From an uncultured Arenicella sp. (GTDB lineage Bacteria; Pseudomonadota; Gammaproteobacteria; Arenicellales; Arenicellaceae), in contig CALJWL010000037.1 of the NCBI GenBank assembly GCA_937974565.1, positions 1-64,000 of the forward strand: a stretch of DNA of 64,000 nt. Reading direction: 5' to 3'. Below, one piece after another: positions 32,309 to 39,476 of the stretch (position 1 is the stretch's first letter; each line of letters opens with the position of its first letter). The notes beneath the pieces are model-generated. The model saw nothing but the letters and a program-made list of their open reading frames with translations. It ran no database searches and was not told the origin of the DNA. The translations under genes and the position numbers were made by a program.

Positions 32309-32575
32309 CTAATGCTTAAGGGTTGAAATTTGATTTCGAAATAGTTTGGTACGCCACAAGGTTTGCATTTTTATTAACACTTTTAACTGATTCGGATAGC
32401 ACTCTATATCACCGTGATGAGTCAGCGAATGGATTAGTTCGACAATTTTAGGCAGAGCATTATTGCACTGGGTCAAACTGTGGTGCGTAATCAACACGCA
32501 AAGGTTAGCCATCAAGTTGTCAAACGTAGGCTCTTCGAGTTCGTCATTAAAAAGGGGAGTAGGATTAAGCTGCAT
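32309..32575 (-). CDS. Small unknown protein, second gene of Fur-linked pair
   Basis: 88 residues, beginning MQLNPTPLFNDELEEPTFDN, mostly helical, with a few Cys and His residues. No family was recognised. It lies 97 bases after the 91-residue gene in the same direction and may share its Fur-controlled transcript. Coding is supported by an uninterrupted, protein-like composition, but the start codon is not proven. Confidence 0.5.
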   Translation of the reverse strand: MQLNPTPLFNDELEEPTFDNLMANLCVLITHHSLTQCNNALPKIVELIHSLTHHGDIECYPNQLKVLIKMQTLWRTKLFRNQISTLKH

Positions 32576-32672: not shown

Positions 32673-32948
32673 TCAATGAACGCCTTTGCGATTAAGGCGG
32701 TTGGATTGGTTCCTTTTGGCCACCAAGCTACGACAGACCTCGCCTATCACTGATGGCCTACGATACTTGCATTCATCTTGCAATGCCATTAACGCCAGCC
32801 GTTTGGCAAAGCACTGCCTCTCTTGATGAGAAAGAAAGCGCAGATCATGGGCTTCAAATTGCCGCTTCAAAATCATCAACTTAACAATCTCAAAATGCTC
32901 AGGCACAACCCAACACTCTTCTCGCGTTCTAATAGTCAGTGACTTCAT
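32673..32948 (-). CDS. Small unknown protein behind a Fur palindrome
   Basis: 91 residues, basic and largely helical, with Cys residues in REECWVV, ERQCFAK, QDECKYR and EVCRS. No family was recognised. A strong ribosome binding site (AGAGGGG) precedes the ATG at 32946-32948. It lies inside a 45-base perfect palindrome that holds an 18/19 match to the Fur box. Iron-responsive repression is therefore likely, and the neighbour bfd supports an iron-linked role. Confidence 0.6.
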   Translation of the reverse strand: MKSLTIRTREECWVVPEHFEIVKLMILKRQFEAHDLRFLSHQERQCFAKRLALMALQDECKYRRPSVIGEVCRSLVAKRNQSNRLNRKGVH

Positions 32949-32954
32949 AAACTC

Positions 32955-32999
32955 ACCCCTCTTAAATGATAATGAGAATCATTATCATTTAAGAGGGGT
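32955..32999. promoter_or_regulatory. 45-bp perfect palindrome with embedded Fur box
   Basis: Two perfect 21-base arms (32955-32975 and 32979-32999) flank a three-base GAA centre. The middle, GATAATGAGAATCATTATC at 32968-32986, matches the 19-base E. coli Fur consensus at 18 positions. The outer arm on the minus strand ends in AAGAGGGG, the ribosome binding site of the 91-residue gene, and the other arm supplies the complementary CCCCTCTT. Confidence 0.9.
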
Positions 33000-33194
33000 C
33001 TGAATACAAGCCAATTCTGACCAAAAGCATTAAAAAGAATGGGTTAACAATATTTGAAGTTGAACAGACACTTTTGCATCGCCCAAAGCCTTCATGGTCT
33101 GTATTTAAGAAATTAAAAAACTAACTGTGTTTGCCCGTCATCCTTCAGCAATAACGTACTCACCTATTACGTAAGCACAAAGGATAATGACTTA

Positions 33195-33431
33195 TTAAAG
33201 GCCGGCAATACCTAAACCCGTTTGATTGGGGAAACCAAACGCTGGCGCTTCGGATTGCGCAACTTCTTTTTCCAACCGCTTTTGCATTATTTTTTTTACT
33301 TCACAAGTGCAAGAACCGCATACCGTACTCACCTCAAGACGATCTTGCATCTGCTCAAACGACGTCACTCCACCATCAACGGCAGCGCGAATTTCGTGAT
33401 CAGTAATCGATTTACAAAGGCAAACAAACAT
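33195..33431 (-). CDS. bfd: Bacterioferritin-associated ferredoxin-like protein
   Basis: 78 residues. The four cysteines that bind the [2Fe-2S] cluster are in MFVCLCKSITD and VCGSCTCEV, the spacing of Bfd. Bfd passes electrons to bacterioferritin to release stored iron when iron is low, and the family is usually Fur-regulated. A Fur-like site lies at 33504-33518, about 70 bases upstream. No bacterioferritin gene is present in the window. Confidence 0.88.
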   Translation of the reverse strand: MFVCLCKSITDHEIRAAVDGGVTSFEQMQDRLEVSTVCGSCTCEVKKIMQKRLEKEVAQSEAPAFGFPNQTGLGIAGL

Positions 33432-33503
33432 GGTGGCAAGTACTTAACAGTACAGTTGGCTTTATTTAATAACGAAAATAACATCGAACTCCCTCTTTGT
33501 AAA

Positions 33504-33518
33504 TGCTAATCAATATCA
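33504..33518. promoter_or_regulatory. Fur box upstream of bfd
   Basis: TGCTAATCAATATCA matches the 7-1-7 Fur consensus TGATAATnATTATCA at 12 of 14 defined positions. It lies about 70 bases above the bfd start, a normal operator distance. Flanking AAATG and CATTT extend the symmetry. It would make bfd iron-repressed. Confidence 0.65.
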
Positions 33519-33725
33519 TTTGCATTATTTTTATCTTTAAAATTGTGCTGCGGAGTTAAGAAAGGCCGCCACGAAACGCCATTCATATCAAAACAGCACT
33601 ACTTTGCACCCTCTTATCGACAAAAACAATCAATATGACCATAAAACACTATTGAATCTATATAACTGTTTTTATTCTGACTAATTGTATTATCCGTTGT
33701 TCACCAAACCTTTTGGAGCAAACCG

Positions 33726-39423: not shown

Positions 39424-39476
39424 GGTTAAAAAACCACGGCGGTTTTTTAACCAGAATTAGGTTTAAACCTAATTCT
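39424..39476. repeat. Two abutting perfect palindromes after groEL
   Basis: GGTTAAAAAACC, a loop ACGGC and GGTTTTTTAACC form a 29-base hairpin. It is immediately followed by the 24-base palindrome made of AGAATTAGGTTT and its exact complement. Both would be transcribed in the groEL 3' untranslated region ahead of the terminator. The function is unknown; it could be an mRNA-end stabiliser or an extra termination site. Confidence 0.85.

Follow-up and report, generated by a model that had tools for sequence, protein, structure and literature searches.

A Fur-box palindrome extending into the Shine-Dalgarno sequence of a two-gene operon in an uncultured Arenicella species

In classical Fur-regulated promoters the Fur box lies over the -10 region and the transcription start site falls inside the box; to our knowledge these promoters lack mirrored arms reaching into the Shine-Dalgarno (SD) sequence. 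The hiding of a ribosome-binding site (RBS) according to where transcription starts is itself an established principle. In phage T4 I-TevI the promoter sits in the 5' arm of a hairpin that conceals the RBS only on transcripts from an upstream promoter, and an operator overlaps that promoter (reviewed in PMC2988022). In phage T4 gene e, which codes for lysozyme, the SD is covered by a fold in the long early transcripts, whereas transcripts with a start within that fold are translated well (PMC3014915). The leader of the IS200 transposase, as cited in PMC3196728, has one stem-loop hiding the RBS and another that ends impinging transcripts.

Here we analyze an extended palindrome in a 64,000-nucleotide stretch of DNA from an uncultured Arenicella sp. 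(the whole of which we call the window). With classical Fur-regulated promoters it shares the box over the -10 element and an internal predicted start. As in I-TevI, the 5' arm of a hairpin holds its predicted promoter, with the RBS hidden only in upstream RNA according to the folding computation and an operator over the promoter; however, the I-TevI repressor is the gene product itself, resulting in autorepression, and that hairpin was tested experimentally, whereas here the repressor would be Fur and the hairpin is predicted. The gene e leader resembles it in that the long RNA folds over the SD and the RNA with an internal start is open (a prediction for our locus), but has no operator palindrome and serves temporal control. 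The IS200 leader likewise places a stem-loop over the RBS, but belongs to a mobile element and, as described there, does not involve Fur. No Fur box merged with an RBS-hiding hairpin was reported in the literature that we searched. A scan of 369 gammaproteobacterial genomes for the pattern CCTC...Fur core...GAGG likewise recovered just the window and two sites with unmirrored flanks, and the reversed-control pattern gave zero matches in the same genomes.

The palindrome, its Fur box and the downstream operon

The element at 32955-32999 is an inverted repeat with two 21-nt arms (32955-32975 and 32979-32999) that are 100% complementary, separated by a 3-nt centre, GAA. The preliminary description of a perfect 45-base palindrome is accurate for the arms, but the 21-3-21 architecture is not strictly palindromic across all 45 bases. 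No other perfect inverted repeat in the 64-kb window is as long (the runner-up has arms of 12 nt), and in 20 dinucleotide-Markov simulations of 64 kb the longest arms were 8-11 nt versus the 21 nt observed. Taking the Fur core as given, the chance of a further 9-nt perfect match per arm is ~7e-6. A reading of the palindrome as an intrinsic terminator was rejected for lack of a U-tract on either side of the stem, and its Rfam matches were confined to microRNA hairpins at chance level, under the gathering score. Elsewhere in the window, two neighboring perfect inverted repeats with 12-nt arms (39424-39476) lie right behind the groEL stop codon and are probably termination or processing signals.

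As had been proposed, the palindrome contains a Fur box: the 19-mer at 32968-32986 (GATAATGATTCTCATTATC on the minus strand) agrees with the consensus GATAATGATAATCATTATC at 18 of 19 bases, and is the sole exact match to the Fur-box pattern in the assembly. The arms of nine other Fur-like boxes examined in this genome measure just 3-4 nt. Features expected of a Fur-regulated promoter are found together here, namely a near-consensus 19-bp box, its overlap with a predicted sigma-70 promoter, and a Fur-family protein encoded in the genome (PF01475, 147.8 bits). Fur would bind the box at 32968-32986, and iron probably switches off, through this operator, a two-gene operon on the minus strand.

The first gene of this operon codes for a 91-residue protein (32673-32948) and the second, conserved one for an 88-residue protein (32309-32575); neither has a family in Pfam, NCBIfam or PHROGs. 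The AlphaFold model of the 91-residue protein is good (pLDDT 85), but showed no significant match to PDB folds, and a contig scan with this single protein as query returned no match; a wide alignment proved too weakly conserved to serve as a query. Its family, seen only in Arenicellaceae, occurs in 15 of the 109 genomes of the order, and the 88-residue protein in 12 of 61 relatives. The two are mostly adjacent and are found in Arenicella and two further genera of Arenicellaceae; a Fur box precedes the pair in most relatives.

Upstream on the same strand lies bfd (33195-33431; Fer2_BFD, PF04324), at a distance of 246 nt from the 91-residue gene. The interval between bfd and the palindrome holds no convincing intrinsic terminator, and the bfd terminator looks weak; read-through transcripts might reach the operon. 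Among the relatives, G011 and G013 are the only ones in which bfd immediately precedes the operon in the same orientation, and in G010 it is divergent. This restricted synteny implies that the 91/88-residue family has its own promoter, independent of bfd. A Fur-like box with two mismatches to the pattern also lies upstream of bfd itself (33502-33520).

Promoter register and predicted concealment of the ribosome-binding site

Comparison of the homologous upstream regions revealed a common promoter register: 10 of 14 have a GAGAAT -10 element at Fur-box offset 0, with a TTGACA or TTGACT -35 element 17-18 nt away. The window holds the same register on the minus strand as TTGTAT-N17-GATAAT, in which the predicted -35 element (33004-33009), TTGACA in most relatives, is weak, and the predicted -10 element (32981-32986) coincides with bases 1-6 of the Fur box. 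Placing the start 6-8 nt past the -10 element puts it at about 32972-32974, in a predicted start region (32971-32975) within the palindrome. Given that this register is kept in relatives, transcription should begin inside the palindrome and leave the promoter-distal (left) arm untranscribed; the outer part of that arm (32987-32999), which carries the anti-SD-like ACCCCTCTT, lies in the -35/-10 spacer, outside the promoter's own transcript. An alternative reading, TTGGCT-N16-TTAAAT, would start near 32980 and again leave out the outer far arm. The earlier suggestion that a start inside the palindrome frees the ribosome site is thus supported, as a prediction, by the promoter register conserved in relatives.

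On the minus strand the promoter-proximal (right) arm has the sequence TTAAGAGGGG; its outer part (32955-32967) lies in the leader and holds the SD AAGAGGGGT(GA), the stretch from SD to ATG of the 91-residue gene being AAGAGGGGTGAGTTTATG. Since the 3' end of the 16S rRNA was sought in the assembly and not found, SD strength was computed with RNAduplex against a generic anti-SD. The resulting duplex of -13.3 kcal/mol is the strongest of the family (-0.8 to -11.0 kcal/mol in the homologues), which agrees with the idea that the gene-proximal outer arm is the ribosome-binding site of this gene.

In folding computations, the energy needed to open this SD is 3.6 kcal/mol for RNA made from the promoter itself versus 21.7 for read-through RNA, which contains both arms. 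When the outermost nine nucleotides of the far arm were randomized, the read-through value fell to 5.5 +/- 2.3 kcal/mol (maximum 12.9); merely shuffling them left it at 12.8 +/- 2.2 kcal/mol, on account of their C-rich composition. By the mean pairing measure the contrast is smaller (0.32 versus 0.12 unpaired), as the promoter's own leader pairs weakly with the early coding sequence. The computations thus bear out the proposal that the other arm pairs with the ribosome site and would silence a transcript from upstream: the predicted SD sequestration is strong, confined to read-through RNA and unique to this sequence among those compared. In ten relatives the opening cost was 1.1-3.3 kcal/mol in the promoter's own RNA versus 1.1-5.3 in read-through RNA; sequestration was absent in all ten, including the two in which bfd is the adjacent upstream gene in the same orientation.

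Origin of the arms and competing explanations

Taken together, we consider it probable that a conserved Fur operator-promoter has here acquired a species-specific arm copy, which should silence read-through RNA as a by-product. In this model the element would serve as the operator-promoter of the two-gene operon. With iron present, Fur would cover the box containing the -10 element and block RNA polymerase; with iron absent, transcription would start inside the box, some 25-28 nt upstream of the ATG, and yield RNA with a short leader and an SD that is strong and fairly open. The box of this species would have expanded into a mirror of 21 bp, its far arm lying in the -35/-10 spacer, which is not transcribed, and its near arm being the SD. 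Transcripts of the promoter itself would lack the far arm, whereas read-through RNA would have both and fold into a very stable hairpin burying the SD; its silencing would be real, but an insulating effect that came about incidentally. As the source of the far arm we consider a template-switch copy, or the correction of an imperfect palindrome, most likely. A single template-switching event can create a perfect hairpin stem (PMC8794818), and such switching is known to occur at E. coli quasipalindromes (PMC7202029); the nearest homologue, at 61% identity, is too distant to polarize such an origin.

A relative offers a parallel: G004 (L076; G004:C5, around 32674-32706) carries, at the homologous operon, a perfect palindrome of its own that spans 33 bp around the Fur box, extending the same flanks (CTTAAAT/ATTTAAG) and leaving the SD outside. 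This extension is an independent one, indicating that a Fur box can grow arms with no link to the SD.

We therefore favor a by-product that may have an insulating effect over an evolved second layer, in which selection would keep the arms to restrict translation to RNA made by the Fur promoter and to keep leaky or read-through RNA silent. We regard the latter as unlikely. In its favor, the perfect 21-bp stem uses exactly the SD, the difference of 18 kcal/mol in opening cost is far above the random-arm values, I-TevI and gene e follow the same logic, and with iron plentiful the hairpin would also quiet stray transcripts. However, the arrangement is missing in all relatives tested, even where bfd lies upstream in the same orientation, and is seen in a single genome. 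Moreover, given the Fur-like box of bfd, the bfd and operon transcripts should respond alike to iron and appear together, with read-through expected mainly when the operon promoter is already on. What is supported of the "two-layer control" in the preliminary description is the Fur box, the SD in the arm, the predicted internal start and the predicted sequestration limited to read-through RNA; an evolved second layer is not supported, in light of the homologues, the box of bfd and the G004 palindrome. The more general notion that one mirrored sequence lets the operator of a metalloregulator act as an RNA switch as well, with translation depending on the source promoter and control exerted at both DNA and RNA levels, we likewise hold to be rather unlikely.

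It is improbable that the extended arms act instead on DNA, through stronger Fur binding or altered promoter behavior (extra Fur contacts or a cruciform), with any RNA effect irrelevant. Fur is able to bind extended arrays, and the independent extension of the same flanks in G004 does not involve the SD; but the outermost 9 nt, ACCCCTCTT, are unlike Fur hexamers and most relatives do without them. Least probable is that the hairpin in read-through RNA serves for processing by RNase III or stabilizes the bfd mRNA 3' end rather than silencing translation: the stem is long enough for RNase III, which the genome encodes, and a convincing terminator is missing after bfd, but no U-tract follows the stem, which is itself absent in relatives with the same gene order.

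Implications

The principle of start-dependent RBS hiding is known, and a Fur operator in such a role was found neither in the literature searched nor, with the pattern tested, at other sites in the 369 gammaproteobacterial genomes. If the element works as predicted, a single inverted repeat would serve as an operator and would also sense where a transcript originated, showing a route from operator palindrome to RNA regulator. Even as a by-product, it would offer a clean natural example of palindrome growth beside a ribosome site. The pair of small proteins preceded by a Fur box in Arenicellaceae may in turn provide a separate lead for the iron biology of this family.
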